Source: Gautieria morchelliformis
Lineage: Eukaryota; Basidiomycota; Agaricomycetes; Gomphales; Gomphaceae
Direction of reading: 5' to 3'
Assembly (NCBI GenBank): GCA_015179125.1
Contig: WHVA01000506.1
Location: 1 to 64,000, forward strand
Length of the DNA stretch: 64,000 nucleotides
Shown: positions 6,862-63,004 of the stretch, one piece after another
How positions within the stretch are numbered: the stretch's first letter is position 1
Layout of the letters: each line of letters starts with the position of its first letter
The notes under the pieces: model-generated
What the model was told of the DNA's origin: nothing
What the model saw: the letters and a program-made list of their open reading frames with translations, nothing else
Databases searched by the model: none
Translations under genes and position numbers: made by a program

Positions 6862-7953
6862 ATGTCTCTTGCGTCCGACCACCCACAAGACGACCTTGAG
6901 TCGTTTGAAGAAGGCAGTTCATCTGGAGGAACCGATGGATATATGACGCCCCATGAGTATGCTGTAGATGAACACGAGGCATCATCAGATGAGGATACGC
7001 GAGTATGTATTCACCATGTTATTGAGAGCTCTGTTGAGCACTTTATAACTGATTGGGCTAGGAAGCTTTGCGTGAGGCAGATGAACTGAAAGCCGAGGGA
7101 ACAGAATCGTTCCGCGGTGGCATGTGGGCTCAGGCTTTGCAGTCATATAGAAGGGGTTTAGCAAGGCTCCCACAGAGGAAAATATCACCTCCCGTTAACG
7201 ACCGCAAGGGAAAGGGCGTTGATCTCGAGGAAGGTCCTGGAGATAGCGATGATGTGGGACACAAGGACCAGCCTGAAGCTGAACCACTCTCAGAGCTGGA
7301 GCAAGACTGCGCAAAGGCAAGGTCAGTTTTAAACGGGAATATAGCGGCATGTCATGTCAAGCTGGTCAGTGTAGCTTTTTACCCCGAATGTGCGACCTGA
7401 GAGTTTAATTCTCCCAACTTAGGGTGAACACAAGGAAGCGGTGGAGGCGTGCAGTCAAGGTTCGTAAATGTTAAGTACAGGTGTGCACCAGATCGTTCAC
7501 CTGATACATTTCTCACAGCCCTTTTGGATGATCCACACTACACCAAGGTTCTTCACCGGCGCGCGACTTCGAATGATTTGCTTGGGACGTGGTCTTCCTT
7601 GGCTTCCGCAGAAGAAGGTTTGTGGATTTTCTAGAAGTATGGAATATGCTCATGAAACCCTTTCAGACTACAAAGAACTTTTAAAAGTTCTCCCAGCGAC
7701 ATCCCCGCTTGTGCCTCAGATTAGACAAGCTCTGCAGCGTGTCACACCGCGGCGTGAAGCCGCACAAAAGGCAGAAATGGGGGAAATGATGGACAAACTC
7801 AAGGGTCTTGGGAATGGTGTACTAGGTCAGAGCCTTCAGCCTTGCTGCGATGCTCGATACTATTGGCCAACAGGAAACTTTGGCCTTTCAACCGACAATT
7901 TCAAGTTTGAGCCAAACGGACAGGGCGGATACTCTATGAGTTTCGTTCGATAA
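6862..7953 (+). CDS. TTC1: TTC1-type tetratricopeptide repeat protein, 272 aa
   Basis: Six exons (6862-7002, 7062-7364, 7423-7459, 7519-7617, 7667-7825, 7874-7953) sum to 819 nt in one frame. An acidic Ser-rich N-terminus of about 47 aa is followed by TPR segments: EADELKAEGTESFRGGMWAQ, then NGNIAACHVKLGEHKEAVEA, then YTKVLHRRATSNDLLGTW. The C-terminal signature is MDKLKGLGNGVLGNFGLSTD plus NFKFEPNGQGGYSMSF, which is diagnostic of tetratricopeptide repeat protein 1. TTC1 proteins are cytosolic adaptors that bind chaperones (Hsp70/Hsp90 C-termini) and, in animals, G-alpha and Ras. The role in fungi is inferred. An insert rich in Glu/Asp/Lys lies between TPR helices (about residues 85-130). Nothing looks broken. 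Confidence 0.9.
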
Positions 7954-8730
7954 TGAAACTCTTTCTTCCACTTAGGCCATATGCAGTCAACGCTGTTACT
8001 ACTCATGTCTGAACGTCATCCAATAAGTACAGACCAATTAGGACCCAAGTCGCATAGCTTCACAGCCGCCGAGTCCACTAAGATTTGGAAACAGAAAGGC
8101 TCAGGCCGAGCTGGCTGTGGCGCCCGGTGTATCGCCTTCATGGTGACACTGCTGGATTGTTAAGGGGAAGCACATCAAAGCAATCCGGGCTGCGTGAATG
8201 TCATGACGCGGGTGGCGTCGGAAAGTCAGGAGCCTGCCTGCATGCCACTAAGGGGGAAATATGCTGATTTGTATCTTGTCCTTTTGGCAACGATGCATCC
8301 TTTCACCTGACCGGAAACCAGCACTTTCAGGCCGTGATGGTGGTCCTCGGCCTCGCCATGAGTCGGAGGACAGTTCTGAGCGAGGGAGGCGGGGGTGTAA
8401 CACCATCAGGATGGAGTGATATCTTATTCACCCTAGCAACTCGTTTATGGAGCGTTGGGCTTGTGGTACGCTCGGGCGTGTCTCCGTTGATAAATACTTG
8501 ATTATGGTTGCTGCTTATGTCATCATCCACCTGTCCCCAATCGATACTTAGGGCTTAGATAGACCTGTGCTTGTTTTCTCGCTTTCGGGCTGTCCTTGCA
8601 GCGGTCCACGGTCTCTCTAATTCGTGCGGCTTTGCTCGTCTTCTCGTTTGCGTGTCCCCTCTTTTATCACTCCTCTAATCAAGCGCAGGTCGCCTTGCTC
8701 TGCCAACGTATCTACCGCAAATCCGGAATA
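7954..8730. other. Intergenic; no gene recognised
   Basis: Short ORFs on both strands show no conserved motif. The last 150 bases are pyrimidine-rich and probably include the promoter and 5' UTR of the next gene. Confidence 0.5.
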
Positions 8731-10149
8731 ATGATTCAGCTCCCGCATTCGCCTGTCCCATGTATCTCCGTATCGTTCGCTCCCACTGAGCCCTTGAAAC
8801 TCCTCAAGCACAAATCGTCCTTTGAGGGTCATCTTCCTGCGGAACCGGACTCCCCCAGGCCACAACATCTGGTGCCTCCCCCAATCATGTCCCCGAACCA
8901 GTTTCTTGGATCTCAACGTCAAAGTCGGCTCTCACCTTTGAGCCCTCCCCATCCCAGCGGTGGCAAGGGCTTGGAGAGAGCTCGATTCGAGGCATTGCTC
9001 CAGGCTTCCAAGGAAAGAAGTGCAATGGTCGGTGCCAAGAAGCCCGTCGAGCTCCGCAAGGAAATCGCCGTAAAGACCCAGAGGGTCAAGCAGCGTTAGT
9101 ACACTCCGTTTGCTCGGTATACACACGTATCTCATTGTCGTGTTTCGCGATTAGTCGTACGTCGGGTTCAGTTCCTGAACAAGCTTGCTGCACCCCCCTC
9201 CCCTTCGGCAACTGACTTACCCGCGACTCCACCCGACTCGCCTGCCATTTTTCACTTCACTCTTCCCTCTCCCGGTCTGGAATCGCCTCTGGAGCTTTTC
9301 GAAAATTTGCTGGATCACCCAGAGCTTTACGAAAACACCACGAGGGTCGAGCAGGTTGACTTTAGGCTTTCACAGCACAAGCTGGAGGATGGTTATTATC
9401 ATCATCATTCTGCTGCTTCCACAAATAATTGTGCTAGCTTGTTACCCTCGCTGGATCAAATTTCGCAGAGAATGAACAAGGTTCCTGTATCTGTTGGCAC
9501 TTATCCATCGCCGCCCCCTGAACAAGGACCCAAAGGAAATAGCCGCTTACCGCCTTTTCTACGAAGTCGCACCCCCTCTCCCACTCCCGAAGCGACACAC
9601 CCCCTCGATGATCAAACTCCCAAACGCGCTCGTCCTGTACCGGCCCGTCTCGCCTTGCGCACTATGACCCCGCCTGCATGTGTTGTAATACGACCGCCCA
9701 CTCCCATGGGTGCTGCCTTTCCCCAGTTCCCACTATCGCCCACGTCGCCGCGAAGGATCAACTTACAGATCACGACAACTATCTGCCCCCCTTCGCGATG
9801 CAGGTCTTCTCCGACTGAGTTCACTGAGGTGAACATTGCTCAGTTCGGCTCGGAGCAATCTGGGATCGTCAGCAAACCCACCATGCTCACTACTACTACT
9901 GCAGTTGACAAGCACATTCCAGCTCGACGGGCGCAGGTGACGAAGGTCATGTTTAATAAACTGAGTAGGCGAAACCCCGACCTTCTGAATGCTGCGGCAT
10001 GCGGCATCAGGGCTCAGGACGACATGTCACTACTAGGAGCTGAAGAGATTGAAGATAAGACGAGGCGGCGTATTAGTGCACCTGCTGAAATGACTATGGC
10101 GCAGAAGGGCACTCGTCACCCAGTTCTTGACAAGCCTGGAGGATTTTGA
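8731..10149 (+). CDS. Unknown Ser/Pro-rich, largely disordered protein, 452 aa
   Basis: Two exons (8731-9094 and 9155-10149) join across a 60-bp GT-AG intron and keep frame to a stop at 10147-10149. The start ATG at 8731 gives MIQLPHSPVPCISVSFAPTE; the in-frame codons upstream look like UTR. The protein is rich in Pro, Ser, Thr and Arg with few hydrophobic runs. A more ordered stretch follows the intron (RRVQFLNKLAAPPSPSATDL, then LESPLELFENLLDHPELYEN), and the C-terminal end is basic and helical (TKVMFNKLSRRNPDLLNAAA). Several S/T-P sites could be phosphorylated. No signal peptide or membrane segment is seen and I do not recognise the family. Conserved neighbours on both sides suggest a real host gene. 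Confidence 0.7.
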
Positions 10150-36024: not shown

Positions 36025-36340
36025 AAGGCGGGACAATCTCTTATCATCTGGAGACTCGCCTGATTATTACTTCGATGATCAGGGCGAACCGGAATCGGAG
36101 GGGCGGTAGTGTAAGCCTGGGACGAATATGGAGGATCGACTGGCTTGGGTCGAGATTCTACTGTAAAGGCATAACTAAGGATAAGGCGGGACAATCTCTT
36201 ATCATCTGGAGACTCGCCTGATTATTACTTCGATGATCAGGGCGAACCGGAATCGGAGGGGCGGTAGTGTAAGCCTGGGACGAATATGAAGGATCGACTG
36301 GCTTGGGTCGAGATTCTACTGTAAAGGCATAACTAAGGAT
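36025..36340. repeat. Tandem duplication, two 158-bp units
   Basis: 36025-36182 and 36183-36340 are identical except for about one base (ggaggatcg against gaaggatcg). The unit starts aaggcgggacaatctctt and ends gcataactaaggat. Such low divergence means the duplication is recent. It lies between the monooxygenase pseudogene and the KDZ gene. Confidence 0.9.
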
Positions 36341-45651: not shown

Positions 45652-45976
45652 CTGGTGGCTATGATTGTCAGCGCTGTCACGTCTAGCGTGCTCAGGTCGT
45701 GTGTTGGGTGCAGGGCCGCTAGTTCACGTTGTTGAACGTCGTATTCCATTGCGGTCTCCCAGCCGTGGGACCTGCCTAGGTCCATCACCAGTTTGTGGTG
45801 CGAGGCTAGGGCGCTGGTGGCTATGATTGTCAGCGCTGTCACGTCTAGCGTGCTCAGGTCGTGTGTTGGGTGCAGGGCCGCTAGTTCACGTTGTTGAACG
45901 TCGTATTCCATTGCGGTCTCCCAGCCGTGGGACCTGCCTAGGTCCATCACCAGTTTGTGGTGCGAGGCTAGGGCGT
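45652..45976. repeat. Tandem direct repeat, two 162-bp units within the DIRS-type element
   Basis: The stretch beginning tggtggctatgattgtcagc occurs at about 45652 and again 162 bases later. The two copies are almost identical, so the duplication is recent. The period is a multiple of three. Confidence 0.85.
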
Positions 45977-52522: not shown

Positions 52523-53796
52523 TGTTACGACCGTTCATTTCCGACTTCCGACCTTCAGTTCCACAACACTTTCCACCCCTCCGATATTTCCGACATTCCA
52601 CCCATTGTTCTATTCCCTTGTTCTTTCGACTCGTTTACTCGGACCCACCGGACCCGCTTCATCCTTCATCAAGGCCATATGTCCGGCCCTCCTTGTGTTT
52701 CGTTGTCAGATATGTTTCCCGACCCCTTGTTCTTTGCCATTGTTTTACCTTACCCTGAACCCCCCTTGTAGTCCCATTGTTCCCAATTAGTTAGTTCCCA
52801 CGCATTGTCTACTCGACTTCCGCTTCCCCCGGAATTTGCTTAGTACTACTGTCAGGGGACACCCTGTTTTCCATTTCCAGTTCCGACACCACACCCAGTT
52901 CCGACTCCATTTCCGACTCCGGTTCCGGTTCCGATTCCATCTCCGCCTCCGATTCCATCTCCGCCTCCGATTCCATCTCCGCCTCCGATTCCATCTCCGC
53001 CTCCGATTCCATCTCCGCCTCCGATTCCATCTCCGCCTCCGATTCCATCTCCGCCTCCGATTCCATCTCCGCCTCCGCTTTTGGAAATGATTCCGCTTCT
53101 GGGAGAACTTCCACCAGTTCTGTTCGCCTTGCCAGTTCCACTCCAATTTCCGACTTCCACTCTCGGAACAGTGTCGGAAATCAAGCGACTCGCGTAATAG
53201 GTGGCATCAAGGGTCGATCAAGGGTCAGGGTGGTCAGGGAGATGCAGGGTTGATGGCGGGTGCCAAGTGTTGTCCCTGGCTGCGCAGCATAGTATAATAC
53301 GGGCTCGCTGACATTGGGGGTCCTTAGACTTTTCTCTTTGGATTTCCCCTTGTCAGGTGAGAATCCCCTCTCTTGTATACTCTGTTCATTTATACATACT
53401 TTGGATTTCCCCTTGTCAGTTGTGTGGTAGTGTGATCTCCACAACCAGCCAGGGCTGCCCTTACAACTACCCCATTACCTGTTGTCTCAGCTCTTTGTAT
53501 AAAAGCCTGTCATGTATGTCTGTTATTCTGCAATCAGATAATCGCCTTCGATACTTGATTTCCTTCACTCCATCTCCTGTTCTTAGCACAGTGAGTCTAA
53601 CAAGACCTCAGTCTCTCCGCCTTCCGTCTTCCGCCTCAATTCTGCCTCAAGTTCCAACTAACCTTCAGTTCAGTACATTTCGCCTTCCGACCCATTTCCT
53701 AAATACCTAGGACGATAGTTCATCGGGGGCGCAACCTACAAGTTGAAGCCGCTGTCCTTTCCAGTTCCAACCTAGCGGAAATCTCGATACGTAACA
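52523..53796 (+). mobile_element. LTR of a retroelement (TG...CA ends), forward
   Basis: It starts TGTTACGACC at 52523 and ends GATACGTAACA at 53796. It is the long homologue of the solo LTR at 60272-60941, sharing the pyrimidine-rich start, a CTTTGTATAAAAGCC TATA region (about 53495) and the last 250 bases. It is longer because of an internal expansion of TTCCGACTCC-type repeats. The flanks (tgccc left, gtatt right) do not match, so it is not a solo LTR. It is the 5' LTR of an element continuing to about 54110. Confidence 0.8.
52933..53076. repeat. 18-bp minisatellite, eight copies, inside the LTR
   Basis: Eight exact copies of gattccatctccgcctcc run head to tail. Since 18 is a multiple of three they open ORFs in all frames (SEAEME, RRRRWN, GGGDGI repeats), which are not genes. 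Confidence 0.95.
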
Positions 53797-54970: not shown

Positions 54971-56176
54971 ATGCCTCGCCCTGGCAACCCTAAACCTGTT
55001 CGTCACATGTACAGCAAGGATCTGCGGGATCGCGTTATACACCAAAAATTCAAGCTCAACAAGAAATCAACCGATATTGCAATTGACCTCGATATGTCAC
55101 TACGTGTAGTTCAACGCACAATCAAACTCTGGCGGGATGTTGGAGACGTCGCGGCAGAGCCAAAGCGGCTATCTCATGGGTCAAAAATGACCTCAGCTCA
55201 GAGTGAAGTAAGTAATTCATGTCTGTGTTTAACTGTAGCTTATTTTATTTTATAACAGTTTCTTCTTGCGCTTCTTGAACGCTCACCCGATCTTTACCTC
55301 GATGAGCTTGTCGAAGAGCTAGAGGTGCAGCATGGTATTTTAGTAAGTATATCAACTGTCTGGAGGACGCTTCGACATCTTGGCTTGCAAAGAAAGAAAG
55401 TGAGTCATTAAATCCTCGAAGAATGACAACCTTTATATTTGTCTCCAACCCAGCTTTCACGGGCAGCCGCAGAGCGCTGTGAAGCCTCGCGGACTGCTTT
55501 CCAGTTTCGTATTGGTAGTGAACCACCGGACCGTTTGTTTTTCACAGATGAAAGCGCAATTGACCTTCGCACAACGTATAGACTAATGGGATGGGCTTAC
55601 AAGGGATGTAGGCCTCAAGTGCGAGCACGTTTCCAAAGGGGCGAAAGGTAACGATTTGTGCACGGGCCTCCATTATTGTATCGCTAATATCCACTCAGAT
55701 TTTCAATCCTTCCGGCGCTCTCACAAGATGGAATCATCTATAGCCATATCAAATTAGGGGCATACGACGGTCCAGAGTTCCTTGGGTTTCTGAAGGGCCT
55801 TTTAGAGGTAATGAACCCTTACCCGGCACCAGAGAGCGTTCTTGTTATGGATAACTGCGCCATTCACCACATACCTGAGGTCTCACTCTTATGTGCCCAA
55901 AGGTTTTTACCATTATAAACTGTTTTCACTAGTGTCTAATCTTGCATTTGCAGAGGAATCAAACTGATGTATCTTCCGCCGTACTCGCCCGATCTCAACC
56001 TGATCGAAGAATCATTCTCCTTCATCAAAGCTCACCTCAGACGTCATGGTGCCGAGTTCTGTGCATGTGTTGCAAGTAAGGAGAGGGCTGAGCTATTCAT
56101 GTTTCTCTACGAGGCACTGGATCGGATTACACGCAGACATGCGCGAGGGTGGATGAAGGACTGTGGCTATCTATAG
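54971..56176 (+). mobile_element. Tc1/mariner-superfamily transposase gene, 332 aa, frame uninterrupted
   Basis: Five exons (54971-55207, 55259-55399, 55454-55647, 55699-55902, 55954-56176) sum to 999 nt. The N-terminal part has a helix-turn-helix (MYSKDLRDRVIHQKFKLNKK, then TDIAIDLDMSLRVVQRTIKL) and a second one (VSISTVWRTLRHLGLQRKK). The DDE core has FFTDESAIDLR (Asp 1), SVLVMDNCAIHH (Asp 2) and YLPPYSPDLNLIEESFSFIK (Glu), the IS630-Tc1 spacing. The model is intact. No terminal inverted repeats or TA duplication were found by eye around it, so it is either an orphan coding remnant, a domesticated copy, or an element whose ends I could not see. It is tail to tail with the FunK1 kinase gene. 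Confidence 0.85.
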
Positions 56177-56387
56177 TGCAGTTGTACTACTGTAATGTAA
56201 TTTTTTTGTTGTCAGAATGTTGAAAATTATCTGCAATGTGATGGATGATATTGGTAAACAACACTTAGTAGTGCAAAAAGTACTCATTGGCCAATTACGT
56301 GCGTCGAGTATCGTAGCATTGTGATAATTCCTACAGTGGCTACAGGATCTCATAATATTATATGCGTTACATGCGGTCTTTCCCAGC

Positions 56388-58251
56388 TCATCCTCTCTCT
56401 TCACCTGTCATTTCCCCCTCATTAACATAATCCCAACTCTCTGGCAGGTCTGAAAGAGATTCAAGCCCAATCGTTACATACTGCCTGTATGGCTTGGTGG
56501 CCTGTAAAGTGTACTCATCGGCGTTCACCTTAACGAAGTCTGGTGTCAGCCATTCCAGAGCAGTCTCCCGAGAAAGCGTTAACCATTGAATCAAGAGTTT
56601 GGAGAATGGCTTGAAGCCCGTGGAGAAGTTTTTCGCGGCATCCTGTTGCTTTAACCTATCAAGGAAACTTCCCCTAGCTTGTAACACAGGTAACTCGTCG
56701 GAGAGCATCGTTTGACGGTAATTCTGTTCTAGTCGCCCGAGTGCCCCCTTGGTCTCCAGAATCTCCAGAATCAACCAAAATAAAACCCATATAAATGACT
56801 CCAGGTCATCAATTACTTGGTGCACAACTTGCGTTCCAGAGTCCCAAGCAACAATCAGTGCCTGAGACATGAAAGGCAGCATACCCTAGAACCATGTAAA
56901 TCACAAGCCGCACACAGCAACTAAAGACCCACCGAGCGATGCTTTGCTAATTCCCGCTTCTGATCCATCCAACAAATCGCCTGGTCCCCATCGCATATGA
57001 ATCCCACACATCTAGTAACTTCTCGAGTCACGGCAAAACTGAAGCAAACATAAAAAAACGAATGGACTGATGTGAAAGACGGTACGTACTCTGCCACAGG
57101 CGGCCGCTCAGCTTCATCCATCAGCATGACGTTCCCGACGCTTACATCGCGGTGCAACCAGCCGTTCTTAAACAGCCCAAAATGCCCTGTCGATCACCAT
57201 TATAGGTAAATCATGTCCGATGCCCTCTTCGTTCACATACCCAACATGGCGTGCACTATGCAACGCACGAGCAATCGAGGACTTTGTGCAGCTCGCAGTG
57301 ACATCCCTCGGGTCTCAAAAACAGATCGCATATGTATTCGTTCGTCAGGCCTAACCCCGGCGTATGGCTCTGGCGCACACACGGGCCAATACGTTGCGTC
57401 ATCAGGTATGAGCTTATCCATTCCATCCTCGACAGGGTATGAGACAAGGATGTCTGGCAGTCCAAATCCGCCCGATAATGCTCCAAACATTGTGCCTTCT
57501 TCGTTATGGGTTTTCAATGGCCATGAATGTTTCAGAATGACAGTGTCCGGCAAGAGAAAAGATATGCCTCCCTTCAACCTCAAGGGTTCTCGACCGTCAG
57601 TCTCTTTTCCAGGCTGAGAACGCGGGGGTTGGTGACTTCGTAAGTTATACCGGTGAGTGGACGAAGGTTGAGCAGGAGAACCATCGGTGGCAGTTGCATC
57701 TTCAAACCCAATTGTTAACTACTGGCCCAGATCTCTAAACGTCAAAACGCACCCTTCTTGACCAAAATATACACACGCGTTGCTTGTCCGCGAACGCAAC
57801 ATCGGTCACAAAGTGTTTTCGAAATCTTGAATATACCCCTCTCGGGAATCGCAATGTCTGTGATGGTACGAGTAGTATCGATTCCAGCGTGGTTTGTGTC
57901 GGTCCAAGAATTAATCCCAACCACTCCACGGACAAATCCTTTAAAGCCTCCCTCCTTCGAGAGGTCAAGTTCCGGCGTAACAACCAGACCCATGCGAGAA
58001 TAAAATCCAAAGCGCACCCCCATCGTTGCGTTGTTGAAATGGATAACAGTGAAGTGTGTCCTCCAACTTCGCCGCAGCTTCATTGAAGCCACTGTGGACC
58101 AGTATCCAAGCTCTGGTCCGCAATGGTTTCAACACTTGTTATCAGTCCCTCCGGAACTGATGACAAGTGCCTTTCTTCCTGCAGTGGTCTGAGCTTTCCT
58201 GGGTACCACCGCCGGATTCCCTGGCGTGGATCGTTTCCCCCTGCGAGGCAT
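56388..58251 (-). CDS. FunK1-type fungal protein kinase, about 529 aa
   Basis: Reverse-strand exons 57753-58091, 57241-57699, 57090-57186, 56933-57011 and 56388-56885 join in frame. A first exon from the ATG at 58251 (MPRRGKRSTPGNPAVVPRKA) can be joined but its donor is uncertain. The N-terminal extension has VRFGFYSRMGLVVTPELDLS and TRVYILVKKG. The kinase shows VILKHSWPLKTHNEE (ATP-binding Lys; FunK1 usually has IKDSW), then GWLHRDVSVGNVML (catalytic HRD...N) and GFICDGDQAICW in place of the D-F-D motif. LPFMSQALI and HQVIDDLESFIWVLFWLI (the DDLES motif of FunK1) follow. Substrates are unknown; the family is expanded in multicellular mushroom fungi. No lesion is seen after exon 1. The altered DFD-equivalent should be noted. 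Confidence 0.75.
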
Positions 58252-58666
58252 GATGGGTAGGAACGGGGACGTGTACTGTTAATCAGCGATATCCGCTGTT
58301 TATCAGCGGCGGGTAGTACTCACCACTGGCCACATGTTGCGGGTCTGCCCTGTGTTGGTGTTTGAGGCCGTGAGGTACAGGTTGGCCGTGGACAGCATCA
58401 GTCAGCACGGCCAGGTAACCGGTGGTGGTGCACGCTGGTGGCCAGCGCTGTGCACCGGCGATTACCACCATTTAGCACCACGCGGCGCTAACCCCTGTGA
58501 ACCGTGGATAACTCCAAGCAGCGTTCCTGGTCATGTGACCAGTTTGCGTCCAACGTTGCTGCGCGCGCGCACCCACCTTCCCTCAACCCTCCTGCTGCCA
58601 TTTCTTCTGGCTCGACTGCTGGCAACCTCTGGCTCCCCTGCCCACTGTCTCTGTGCCTGATGGATC
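58252..58666. other. Upstream region of the FunK1 gene; no gene recognised
   Basis: Contains short inverted words (atcagcgatatccgctgtttatcagcgg) at about 58281-58308 and no coding motif. An ORF from 58504 runs into the minisatellite. Confidence 0.4.
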
Positions 58667-58850
58667 TGTCTGTCTGCTGCTGGATCTCTGTGTCTGCTGC
58701 TGGATATCTGTGTCTGCTGCTGGATCTCTGTGTCTGCTGCTGGATCTCTGTGTCTGCTGCTGGATCTCTGTGTCTGCTGCAGGATCTCTGGGTCTGCTGC
58801 AGGATCTCTGTGTCTGCTACTAGCTCTCTCTGTGTCTGGCTCTCTCTGTG
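58667..58850. repeat. 20-bp minisatellite, about eight copies
   Basis: The unit tgtctgctgctggatctctg repeats head to tail with a few substitutions (gctgcagg, ggatatctg). It then degrades into tctctctgtgtctggctctc. It leads directly into the exon-intron ladder. Confidence 0.9.
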
Positions 58851-58879
58851 TCTGTTACTGGGGCTCTCTGTCTCTCTAC

Positions 58880-59800
58880 AGCCCCCTCAGGTAAATATTG
58901 TTAATATTTTCGCTTTTTATCCTCTTTTGACTTCTTTTCAGCCTAGGCTGCTCCTCTCATTGCCTTCCACCTTTCTTGATGGTCATTACTGGCTCTGGTG
59001 TGGCTTTTTCCTGTAATATCTATCATTTATTCCAATAATTTTCTCTTTTTTATCCTCTTTTTGTCTTCTTTTCAGCCACCTCTCAATCTCACCTTGCCTG
59101 TCTGATATTGCTGCATCTGGTGTGTGTCTTGCTATCATGTTTTGATATTTATTAGAATCAGCTTCTCTCCATGGTATATATTGCTATTTGTTGCTATAAT
59201 TTTCGCTTTTTTAATCTCTTTTTGACTTCTTTTCAGCTTAGGTTGCTCCTCCCATTGCCTCCACCTTTCTTGGTCATCACTACTGCCTCCTGTGTGTTCT
59301 TTCCTTATCATATCTGTCATTTCTTCCACTAATTTTCGCTTTTTTATCCTCTTTTTGCCATATTTTCAGCCCAGGTTCCTCCTCTCAGTGCTCCCACCTT
59401 TCCTGTCTGCCATTGCTGCATCTGGTGTGTGTCCTGCTGTCATATTTGTGTTGTTTTGACATTTATTAGGATCAGCTTTTCTCCATGGTATTTCTTCCAA
59501 CATTTTCGCTTTTTTAACCACTTTTTGATTTCTTTTCAGCCTAAGCTGCTCCTCTTATTGCCTCCCACCTTTCTTGATCATTATCACTGCCTCTGGTCTG
59601 TGTTTTTTCTGTCATGTCTTGCAATAAAATTTCACTTTTTTCTTTTTTTTTTCTTTTTTTTTCTTTCTAGCGCAGGTTCAGAGCTCCCACCATTCCTGTG
59701 TGTCATGGCTGCAAGTGGTATGTTTCTTGCTCTCATATCTGCTTCTTTTTTGATATTTATTAGGATCAGTTTCTCTTTTTTTTAATTGTTATGTATTTGT
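58880..59800 (+). repeat. Ladder of six exon-like modules with splice-like borders (period about 295 bp, two modules per period)
   Basis: Six times an intron-like tract (attttcgcttttttatcctc..., then cttcttttcag) is followed by a GC-richer block of 44-56 nt and a donor-like G|GTGTGTG. Acceptors fall at about 58941, 59076, 59237, 59370, 59540 and 59672. Blocks 1, 3 and 5 start CCTAGGCTGCTCCTC (type A). Blocks 2, 4 and 6 are related to one another (ttgctgcatctg) and are followed by tttgatatttattaggatca (type B). The A-to-A and B-to-B spacing is 294-301 bp. A donor-like cctcag|gtaaatatt precedes the first. Similarity in the intron-like parts is as high as in the blocks, which fits segmental duplication. 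Confidence 0.75.
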
Positions 59801-59999
59801 TTTTATTTATTTTTTTATGTATATATATACTGTATATTTGTCAAAATAGATATCAAAAAATTTCTTTGACTTTGTTAAAAATTAATGACAACAGCCTCTG
59901 CTTGCAAAAGATAAGTCTATTGCTCAATTATCCATTGTAAACCCTCTGACATTTATTTATTTTCTCTGCACCTACAATAAGTTGACTTTTAGGTAGAGT
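59801..59999. other. AT-rich spacer
   Basis: A (TA)n-like stretch (atgtatatatatactgtata) and AT-rich sequence with a possible further acceptor (gacaacag, 59889-59896). No gene is seen. Confidence 0.4.
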
Positions 60000-60271
60000 T
60001 ATGCTACATATGGGGACATACTACAAACAAGGGACATGCTATGCACACTATACTTGGGTGACATGCTACACTCAGGGGACATGCTACACATGTGGGACAC
60101 ACTACAAACAAGAGACATGCTATGCATGGGGGATACGCTACACATGGGGACATGCTACACACAAGGGACATAACACATATGATATACTTGGGAGACACAC
60201 TACACATGGGGGACACTTTACACATGGGGAACATGCTACACTTGGGGGACATGCTATGCATCGTGACATGC
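60000..60271. repeat. Minisatellite GGGGACATGCTACACAT-like, left part
   Basis: About 14 variant copies of an 18-20 bp unit (ggacatgctacacatggg, ggacacactaca...) run together. The array continues at 60942-61030 beyond the solo LTR inserted in it. Confidence 0.85.
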
Positions 60272-60941
60272 TGTTACGTATCAAGATTTCCGCAAGTCGG
60301 AACTAGAAAGGACAACAGCTTCAACTTAAATGTTGCACCCCCAATGAACTATCGTCTTAAGTATTTCGGATCACGAGTCGGAAGTTGGAATGTATCAAAC
60401 TAAACAGAAGTCAGAACTTGAGTTGGAAACTGAGTCAGAAGGCGGAAGGTGGGAGGCGGAGAGACAGAGGTCTTGCAAAACTCGCTGTGCTAAGAACAGG
60501 AGATAGAGCGAAGGAAATCACGTATTGAAGGTGATTATCTGATTGCAGAATAACAAGCATACATGAGGGGCTTTTATACAAAGAGCTGAGACAACATGTA
60601 ATGGTGTAGTACTAAGCAGATTATGGAGGGAGCGGAAGTCGGATAGACATACGGGATAATTAACTAATTGGGAACAAGGGGACTACAAGGGGGGGTGCAG
60701 GGTAGGGTAGAACAATGGCTAAAGAACAAGGGGTCAGAAAGTATATCTGACATAAAGAAACAACGAGACTCCAAAGGGGCCGGACACATGTCTTGCTGTG
60801 CTGCAAGGTGAGTCCGGTGGGTCTGAGTAATAGAGTCGAAAGAACAAAGGAATAAAACAATGGGTGGAATGTCGGAATTATCGGAGGGTTGGAATGTGAG
60901 TGGAACTGAGTGTCGGAAGTCGGAAATGCATGATCATAACA
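60272..60941 (-). mobile_element. Solo LTR with 5-bp target duplication CATGC
   Basis: It reads TGTTACGTATC at the left and ends ...GATCATAACA at the right, with inverted TG/CA ends. Its reverse complement matches the LTR at 52523-53796 over start, TATA region and end. CATGC flanks it on both sides (60267-60271 and 60942-60946). No internal region is present. The minisatellite continues on both sides, which proves the insertion. The intact 5-bp duplication suggests moderate to young age. Confidence 0.92.
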
Positions 60942-61030
60942 CATGCTACGCACACTATACTTGCAGGACACACTACACACCGGGAACATGCCATACATAG
61001 GGACATGCTACCCATGTGGGGCACACAGAC
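60942..61030. repeat. Minisatellite GGGACATGCTAC-like, right part
   Basis: Continuation of the 60000-60271 array after the solo LTR, with about five more variant units. Confidence 0.75.
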
Positions 61031-61185
61031 ATGGGAGAAATGGGTGGAGACATTACCTACCCTGATGCATTACTTAGAGCTACTTTCAATTGTGATAAGA
61101 TGTGTTTTACTTATCCGAATAATTTTACTTTCCCAAGTTTTATTTACCCATGTGTTTGACCTAACCATGGGTATCCACCCTAGCA

Positions 61186-61520
61186 GTGGTCCCAGTGCTT
61201 TCACATCCAATGGGTCCCCAGCAGTCCCTACCCAGCGCTGTGCCACATCCTGGTGTGCAGCACAGGGCCATGGTAGGAATTGACTTGCGATATGCAGTAT
61301 TTTCACATGGACAGTTTTATGTTGCACTAATTGTAACAGAGTCCATGTTCTTTAGGGAAGGGAACACAACATCTAATATTGTATACAAACAGGTGCTGCT
61401 AAAGCCTGATTAAATATGTAGTTTCATTTCACCAAATAATTCTGTAATACTGTTGACTACCCCTGTGCAATGTTAACCTTACTTAACTAACCCGGTGCAA
61501 AGCACGGGTCTATTGGCTAG
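61186..61520 (+). mobile_element. Helitron 3' end (helicase C-terminus plus terminal hairpin)
   Basis: The frame ends VGIDLRYAVFSHGQFYVALI then EGNTTSNIVYKQVLL. This is the last part of a Pif1-type Helitron helicase, whose usual form is FSHGQLYVALSRV followed by NIVYKEVL. The AlaLeuIle in place of AlaLeuSerArg suggests decay. About 75 bases on, cccggtgc-aa-agcacggg forms the terminal hairpin (61491-61508), followed by tctattggCTAG ending at 61520 and a T. This is the CTRR end typical of fungal Helitrons. The 5' part of the element is not present in the window. Confidence 0.75.
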
Positions 61521-63004
61521 TCACATGTAAATTTGTAGGAAGCATTATGTAATAACAATCTCAGAAAGTTTTATTATTGAAGCTAGCTGAGAAACCCAGT
61601 TGTTGTGGTGGAAAAATTGGAGGGGGTCTATATTTATAAAATTGTGCAAAAAGGATGACATTGTGTCGGCTGCGTGAGACAGTCTCTGAGAGACTCGGGG
61701 AGATGTGCCTGAACAAACAGTATCCCCTTGATCGGACGGTCAGGTACTCGTCTATATTTGTAACATGGTCAAATCTATGAAATAAGGATGTTTTGTGTAT
61801 TTTAGGGAGTTTGCGTGGCAAAGTGAACCTAAGGCCACACCGGGTGAAGACGGTCGGTCAGTCTGCATGGGAGACACACTGCAAAATGGATTGGCCCTCA
61901 GAACGGTATCTACTTACAGGGCTTGTATTGCCTTGTTGCATTTGATGGCATAGCTCGTGAGAGCTTCGCTGGACGTAAAAAAGCCCTGAATGTGATGTGC
62001 GGTTAGTCAGGAGGTAAATTGTACATCCCAGAGTGTTCCCTACGTTATCATCATATATGAAAGTTTTCGATATTCCGCCATCTTCCAGGATTTCTGAATC
62101 GTCTTGACAGGAACAGAGTAACACGGTGCACCTAGAGTTGCACTCGCACACCCCCACAAATCCATCCCCCGAGCATGCCACTCCAGATACACTACCAATG
62201 TGACCTATATCAGACAAGCAAACATTTCATCGCTCAGTGCAGTTGGTATGATGAACGGCAATGGGGTTATTCAAGAACACATGTACTAAACACAGGTACT
62301 AATCACATCCATTTATTACAGTCAGACATGCGGTCACAATAAATTTTATTGCCTGTGGAGGTGAGTTTTGACAAGTACGGCAAGGAACAGCGATGGGTTT
62401 AAGTTGTGGACACGTTGAGGGTGTCAGCAGACGGTGGATCACTGTTTGGCTGCGAGAGTCTCAGCCGAGTCTCCGTGAGACAGTCTCGCGCAATGGACCC
62501 AATTCTCTGGCAAAAAGCACGATGCGTGTTGGAGTCCAGACTTGACTGCAAACGGCTGTAACACCCAGTAGTTCCCTTGTCGAAGGCAAGGGCTTCTAAC
62601 CCTGGGAGATACTATGCCTGAGTAGGAAATGGATCAGTGCAGGATATGGATAAAGTGTCTTAAAATATATACCTCAGCCATTTTGGGTCAGTTTTGTAGC
62701 TAGAGTTACAAGTTATACACAGTATTTTATCCATGCAAATTAATGAGTAACAGGAAGAAGAAGTCTAAGTGCTGGAAGCTGCCTAATGTGTTTCCAAGCA
62801 TTGTTAACACCCCCAGGGGCTCAAATGTGTGGGTTTAATTGCAAAATTTCACTCAGATTACACTATACTCTTATAATATGGATTTCCTCCCATGCTGGCA
62901 AAGCAAGGAGCTCTGGTTCTTTGTTTCTTCTGTCACGATCTCTTAGACAGCTTTTGTGTGACAACACGCTTTTGATCTCCGATTGAATCCAAACCTTTGA
63001 CATT
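61521..63004. other. Gene-poor stretch with one Cys-rich reverse ORF
   Basis: A reverse ORF (61858-62217, 119 codons) reads GVACSGDGFVGVCECNSRCT then VLLCSCQDDSEILEDGG. It has no signal peptide, family or splice support, so it is probably a relic. The rest is AT-rich. Two similar words, gtgagacagtctctgagaga (61675) and ccgtgagacagtctcgcg (62484), hint at a decayed repeat pair. Confidence 0.3.

Follow-up and report, generated by a model that had tools for sequence, protein, structure and literature searches.

Exon-like ladder of a non-autonomous Helitron in Gautieria morchelliformis and its homology to the RepHel leader

The ladder of exon-like modules found in Gautieria morchelliformis belongs to a non-autonomous Helitron and is homologous to the leader that directly precedes RepHel transposase frames in the same genome. 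It is probably what remains of a 5' RepHel leader with duplicated non-coding exons that underwent splicing, and the Helitron that carries it is a non-autonomous derivative formed by deletion. The sequence-only reading had proposed either a transcribed locus whose exons had multiplied by segmental duplication or a satellite with no more than the look of splicing. The multiplied modules and their variable number were recovered, and the locus itself turned out to be a transposon copy instead.

We propose that transcription starts near the Helitron 5' end, that splicing would join a chain of short exons into a 5' UTR free of ATG and that translation would start at RepHel. Part of this chain may have been duplicated in tandem as a 296-bp unit with the putative exons X-Y-Z. 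Since whole exon-plus-intron units were duplicated and the exons would be non-coding, extra units would be tolerated and their number would drift, and this tolerance may be what allowed the amplification. The copy in the window would have lost the RepHel body and the 5' terminus, and its A/B ladder would be a related version that was amplified separately. The leader is likely to be spliced in autonomous copies. Introns in the leader are plausible because the RepHel genes of Pleurotus contain introns according to the RNA-seq results given in the available text of PMC4289320, which does not say whether these belong to the leader. The copy in the window is unlikely to be active.

The ladder and its Helitron copy in the window

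The window is the whole stretch of 64,000 nucleotides that was analyzed. The six exon-like blocks of 44-56 nt, described earlier in the order A-B-A-B-A-B, were all located where they had been reported (Table 1), and they are separated by intron-like gaps of 78, 117, 78, 115 and 75 nt. The periodicity of about 295 bp corresponded to a 294-bp period over 58906-59597 in TRF. The 20-bp minisatellite upstream of the ladder was present, as was the donor-like site ahead of the first block, from whose GT at 58891 a tract of 51 nt leads to the first acceptor. The border motifs are less uniform than had been claimed. The acceptor cttcttttcag is exact at A1, B1 and A2, while A3 (..tttcttttcag), B2 (..ccatattttcag) and B3 (..ctttctag) deviate from it. 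The donor GTGTGTG or GTATGT is exact at B1, B2 and B3, while A1 has GTGTGGC, A2 GTGTGTT and A3 GTCTGTG. Two ATGs occur in the window ladder, in blocks A1 and B3.

The A and B blocks are related to each other (52-87% between consensus monomers), which suggests that the ladder is a monomer of about 148 bp arranged as a 294-bp higher-order unit. A pattern scan scored 4 in the ladder, compared with a mean of 0.12 and a maximum of 2 in 500 shuffles. The exon-like pattern appeared in 0.2-1.6% of single shuffled monomers and in 4/6 real monomers; as the six modules are mutual duplicates, this counts as approximately one unlikely event and not as six. The chain of intron signals in the ladder comprised 4 introns (shuffle mean 0.30, maximum 3, 300 shuffles) and that of the opposite strand 0; two of these four are ladder introns of the sequence-only reading and two use other ladder sites. 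The chain did not exceed that of shuffled sequences in either of two control stretches taken from the window.

The identity of the surrounding element as a Helitron is near certain. It displays a CTRR-type 3' end with a short upstream hairpin, the fold of which has -6.5 kcal/mol and a z of -2.0. Homology to the other copies begins at 58514, with T at 58513 and C at 58512 preceding it, and the 5' terminus of the relatives (TCTATAGTATAAAGTT.. or a close variant) is missing. The RepHel remnant matched the ends of RepHel frames as long as 1,659 aa at approximately 70%, for example the 1,643-aa frames of C529, C174, C208 and C251 (best 150 of 795 candidates), and it matched the PIF1-helicase ORF of locus L027 at 48% over 54 aa (E 2e-12). 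As this C-terminal remnant lies just inside the 3' end of the window copy, the element is an internal-deletion derivative that consists of the leader with its ladder, a filler with the 18-bp minisatellite, the RepHel tail and the 3' end. The segment 58514-58656 is promoter-like and may have served as a promoter; the best 40 of its 142 genomic candidates were scored. Among structured RNA families, only a tRNA reached the gathering threshold in the window.

Table 1. Positions of the Helitron copy in the window and of the features within it
Feature	Position	Strand	Basis or remark
Non-autonomous Helitron copy, without 5' terminus	58514-61520	+	Homology of dispersed copies over 58514-61521; 3' hairpin and CTAG/T
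Promoter-like segment with GTCAYGTGAC (E-box-like) palindrome	58514-58656	+	Own-genome search and sequence
20-bp minisatellite, CTGCTGGATCTCTGTGTCTG-like, 10.9 copies	58657-58873	+	TRF; would fall within the first exon
Donor-like site CTCAG/GTAAAT	58891-58896	+	Sequence; after the minisatellite
Block A1, 56 nt	58942-58997	+	Exon-like; acceptor AG in 8/25 and AC in 17/25 copies
Block B1, 44 nt	59076-59119	+	Exon-like
Block A2, 55 nt	59237-59291	+	Exon-like
Block B2, 55 nt	59370-59424	+	Exon-like; homologous to putative exon X of the RepHel leader (blastn)
Block A3, 56 nt	59540-59595	+	Exon-like; T of donor GT gapped in 10/25 copies
Block B3, 47 nt	59671-59717	+	Exon-like; donor GTATGT
18-bp minisatellite, TGGGGGACATGCTACACA-like	60055-60256	+	TRF; in the filler replacing the RepHel ORF
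RepHel C-terminus remnant, 47 aa searched, then stop	61270-61413	+	Protein match to RepHel frames
Helitron 3' terminus: hairpin CCCGGTGCAAAGCACGGG, then TCTATTGGCTAG	61491-61520	+	Host T at 61521

Dispersed copies and their RepHel relatives

The 921 bp of the ladder were searched in the 122-Mb genome and the best 40 of 264 candidates were scored, of which the 39 outside the window were 90-96% identical to it. The ladder is therefore dispersed, and a single-copy gene was ruled out. Twenty ladder places were retrieved with their flanks for mapping of homology and ends. The 3' terminus was detected at 222 genomic places with at most two mismatches and at 0 in the control. In all 18 copies whose 3' end was detected, CTAG is directly followed by a host T. 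The 5' flanks ended with A in 13 of the 21 detected ends and with the CTAG of another Helitron in the other eight, and the A/T insertion sites typical of Helitrons were thus found in these copies. These 21 ends were located with a pattern that itself starts with TC. The 3' end of this Helitron was located downstream in 18 of the 21 ladder copies retrieved, and at 19 of the 40 scored places among the 100 ends listed.

Two of the eight CTAG flanks belonged to the family of the ladder Helitron and six apparently to a different one. In L011, L013, L014, L021, L023 and L025, the TC of the ladder Helitron stands right after a CTAG with another hairpin before it (..GCGCGGGTAYCCACCTAG), which seems to be the 3' terminus of another Helitron family. 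Such 3' ends of other Helitrons may therefore be favoured as landing sites. L012 (C238) and L016 (C1026) share identical flanks on both sides of the Helitron and hence represent one insertion, not two, either in a duplicated segment or in unmerged haplotypes of the assembly. Many of the retrieved ladder Helitrons carry, at the equivalent of 60113-60128, an insertion of a repeat of about 450 bp that also occurs in the window at 53025-53474; this is a separate small mobile repeat, and the Helitron of the window is without it.

The RepHel-bearing relatives share both the 5' and the 3' terminus with the ladder Helitron and thereby represent an autonomous partner with Rep and helicase, with the domain test for PIF1 covering the ORF of a second Helitron family only. 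For Helitron_like_N (PF14214), the best 150 of 865 candidate genomic places were scored. Of these 150, 39 were followed on the same strand by one of the 3' ends (100 of the 222 listed) at no more than 6 kb, and in 34 of the 39 the distance was 2,808-2,818 bp; the reversed-strand control gave 0. Among the best 40 of 232 candidate leader copies, 26 were followed on the same strand by a RepHel domain at a distance of 1.67-2.75 kb.

The leader end could be paired by coordinates with a RepHel C-terminus in 23 copies. In four of them (C572, C837, C637 and C460), the RepHel frame has 1,635-1,659 aa and opens precisely at the position that corresponds to 9527 in L027. The other 19 have shorter frames and are thus broken or divergent. 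The copy of L027 seems to be broken too, since by coordinates the ORF behind its leader is out of frame with its own RepHel domain (C139:23735). An A/B ladder with RepHel within 8 kb downstream was detected at 3 of the 40 scored ladder places (C139, C352 and C859), and in C139 and C352 the 3' end of the ladder element itself lies between ladder and RepHel. Among these 40 best-scored places, no RepHel could be established as the immediate downstream neighbour of an A/B-type ladder. What links the ladder to the RepHel leader is homology: B2 with its surroundings matched the repeated block X of the leader at 73% over 123 bp (blastn, E 1.4e-9), and we consider this link strong.

The RepHel leader and its repeated units

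The leader extends over about 2 kb from the Helitron 5' end to the RepHel frame. The one leader that was modelled is that of L027, where a Helitron in head-to-tail arrangement (7441-9901) shares the 5' end and continues with a leader that contains a ladder of 2.7 copies of a 296-bp repeat, followed by an ORF that is open stop-to-stop from 9527. Drawn by hand on splice-site grounds, the 296-bp unit comprises three exon-like blocks: X of 59 nt with donor GTGAGC, Y of 16-19 nt with donor GTATGT, and Z of 29, 34 and 28 nt with donors GTATGG, GTATGG and GTAGGT. The putative introns measure 50, 54, 55, 59, 78, 52, 54, 79, 51, 81, 61, 119 and 85 nt, so that 12 of the 13 fall within 50-85 nt; the donor drawn for the last of them is poor (GTTTTG). 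Unit 2 has CCTG in place of the Z acceptor CCAG, and 5 nt upstream it has CTCAG in place of CTCAT.

The 14 drawn exon-like blocks of L027 (490 nt) contain no ATG, compared with 10 ATGs in 800 nt of drawn introns (Fisher p 0.017), and the shuffle expectation for the blocks is 3.9 (P 0.015); the stretch 9008-9488, outside the drawn chain, contains ATGs at 9022 and 9041. The intron-signal chain of this leader reached 7, compared with a shuffle mean of 1.6 and a maximum of 5 (300 shuffles), and its antisense strand gave 0. Four of the seven introns in this automatic chain coincide with the 13 drawn by hand, so that the value gauges the density of signals and is no proof of the exact chain. The leader of L023 gave a chain of 3, which was reached by 1 of 300 shuffles. 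Donor, branch-like and acceptor signals thus exceed chance on one strand only in both the L027 leader and the ladder of the window.

At the end of the L027 leader, a putative intron was recognized (GTGAGT..CTGAC..TCTAAG, 9489-9549). Its predicted removal would join AAAAT to GGAGCCC and thereby create an ATG in the RepHel frame; in the unspliced sequence, a TGA follows the ATG immediately. As another in-frame ATG occurs about 20 codons downstream, the use of the splice-made ATG as the RepHel start is suggestive only. The donor-like site of the window occupies the same element position as CTCAG/GTATGT at L027 7718, and among 25 copies examined the site could be located in 20, of which 19 have CAG/GTAAAT.

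The number of units varies, as had been suggested for the window modules. A profile search with the A/B ladder (25 sequences) recovered 23 six-module arrays, a single array of eight modules and two of ten; the eight-module array gave nine profile matches with one module split. The acceptor motif of X occurred 106 times in the genome and 0 times in the control. The 100 places listed formed 45 groups with at least three copies (21 groups), two (13) or one (11), these sizes being lower bounds because two mismatches were allowed and the places were taken as listed. Spacings of 291-298 bp accounted for 52 of the 55 measured. Among 32 displayed places, 28 had AG at the X acceptor and four did not.

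A second Helitron family, distinct in its 5' end, was detected in L027 (2760-3805, minus strand). Here, a ladder of 154-bp exon-like repeats precedes an ORF of 868 aa, in which Pfam identified a PIF1 helicase and no Helitron_like_N domain. The second leader shares a stretch of 121 bp with the first one at 76%. Its intron-signal chain was 2, a value reached by 34 of 300 shuffles and hence not significant.

Border conservation and alternative readings

Comparison of the splice-like borders with other positions, which had been put forward as a test of the modules, gave a mixed result: divergent units keep their GT, and the excess of AG/GT conservation in young copies was not significant. In the alignment of 25 young ladder copies (five overlapping secondary alignments of long arrays were left out), the mean pairwise divergence of AG/GT borders was 0.019 compared with 0.044 for random columns (p = 0.11), and 11 of 121 shifted border placements were as low as the real ones. 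Within the ladder, variability was highest at donor positions +3 to +6 (0.079). Exon-like and other intron-like positions did not differ among these copies (0.043 and 0.042), and selection separating the two was accordingly rejected for them. Most of the 25 copies are presumably dead, and the border test has therefore little power either way. Among divergent ladders, 13 units from three ladders were aligned and four representatives were compared in six pairs. The donor GT was retained in all six pairs, and the exon bodies agreed at 24-37 of 59 positions. Cutting the units at their acceptors biases the AG score in the X and W rows, and a different AG was aligned in the F2 rows; the GT score is unaffected by the cut.

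Two further traces of splicing were sought. Retro-copied spliced transcripts were rejected, as a junction-pattern search of the genome gave none above the control: spliced-junction copies of the ladder numbered 5 compared with 11 in the control, and two leader junctions gave 0 and 0. A conserved peptide from a putative spliced exon 1 was also rejected, because the frame and length contributed by the minisatellite differed among 20 copies (25 examined).

These results bear on the reading of the ladder as a satellite that only looks spliced, that is, an ordinary tandem repeat within the Helitron, T-rich by chance and never spliced, for which rolling-circle replication and slippage could amplify any internal sequence. 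The lack of a significant excess of border conservation in young copies, the loss of the A1 acceptor in most of them, the lack of spliced genomic copies at the tested junctions and the presence of other minisatellites in the same element are all consistent with it. However, the position of the homologous blocks between the Helitron 5' end and RepHel is fixed, and divergent ladders still share their GT borders. Both the ladder and the L027 leader have more intron signals than shuffled sequences, with nothing antisense, and this was not so in the two control stretches. Moreover, the non-repeated parts of the leader are intron-like too, and the drawn blocks of L027 are free of ATG. We regard a satellite as rather unlikely. 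Improbable as well is the view that the leader is useful, engaging the spliceosome and gaining or losing exon-intron units to the benefit of, for example, nuclear export or escape from intron-sensitive RNA silencing; two families with different termini have amplified different leader units, which hints at some usefulness beyond tolerance.

Exons captured from an intron-rich host gene and then duplicated would also give such a ladder, and Helitrons are described as capturing gene fragments, including those of Pleurotus in the available text of PMC4289320. Such an origin is nevertheless very unlikely here: the 3' end of this Helitron follows most retrieved ladder copies, the leader of RepHel itself is a homologous ladder, a related ladder exists in the second Helitron family, and no separate donor locus was seen among the best 40 of 264 ladder candidates and the best 40 of 142 candidates of the promoter-like segment. 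It is hardly to be expected that the copy in the window is active as a non-coding RNA gene whose number of exons varies. The promoter-like palindrome, the donor after the minisatellite and the presence of AG and GT at all borders of this copy would fit such a gene. However, the copy is one of 40 scored near-identical repeats and lacks the 5' terminus, its would-be first exon is constant neither in length nor in frame across the 20 copies in which it was located, and the A1 acceptor is broken in 17/25. The relic of a duplicated, spliced RepHel leader remains the reading that we favour.

Tandem exon duplication in genes places units of exon and intron head to tail in variable number. Likewise, whole exon-plus-intron units appear to be duplicated in variable number here, but the putative exons are non-coding parts of a transposase leader and the array was spread to many loci by transposition. 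Introners and other transposon-made introns give rise to many intron-like sequences of one family per genome; in contrast, the putative introns described here are internal to the transposon and are not single introns inserted into host genes. HELPO1 and HELPO2 of Pleurotus ostreatus have an AT target, a 5' T[C/G], a CTRR-type 3' end, a subterminal hairpin and a RepHel ORF (PMC4289320). They resemble the present elements in the AT target, the type of 3' end, the RepHel ORF and the coexistence of autonomous and non-autonomous copies, and the 5' ends located here with a TC-led pattern would fit as well, but the available text of that source describes no ladder of duplicated leader exons (PMC4289320). 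In maize and bat Helitrons arranged head to tail, the CTAG of one element is followed by the TC of the next in a G/T junction, according to the part of PMC2267711 available. The same junction occurs in 8 of the 21 five-prime flanks here, with the difference from the arrangement given there that L027 joins a RepHel element to a ladder-bearing derivative and that in six of the eight the CTAG is apparently of a different family (PMC2267711). No description of leader exon arrays in Helitrons was found in the titles and abstract starts of the open-licence papers that a literature search listed.

If the leader ladder is spliced, it provides a natural series of one transposase gene with differing numbers of non-coding exons. 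Such a series would allow the effects of multi-intron leaders on transposon expression and silencing to be tested, as well as the origin and loss of tandem exon arrays. Fungal RepHel genes that are called intronless may have spliced leaders overlooked by ORF-based annotation, and such leaders would spread genome-wide as exon-like debris on non-autonomous copies.

Other repeats and a gene remnant were observed elsewhere in the window. TRF detected tandem duplications with units of 158 and 162 bp, two copies each, at 36025-36340 and 45652-45975, which are perfect or near-perfect and apparently very recent, and an 18-bp unit at 52930-53077 with 8.2 copies and 100% matches. The region 55401-57739 recurs in L022 at 95%. 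On the minus strand at 56388-57193, fragments of a fungal protein kinase (PF17667) were identified, one above and one below the curated cut-off.
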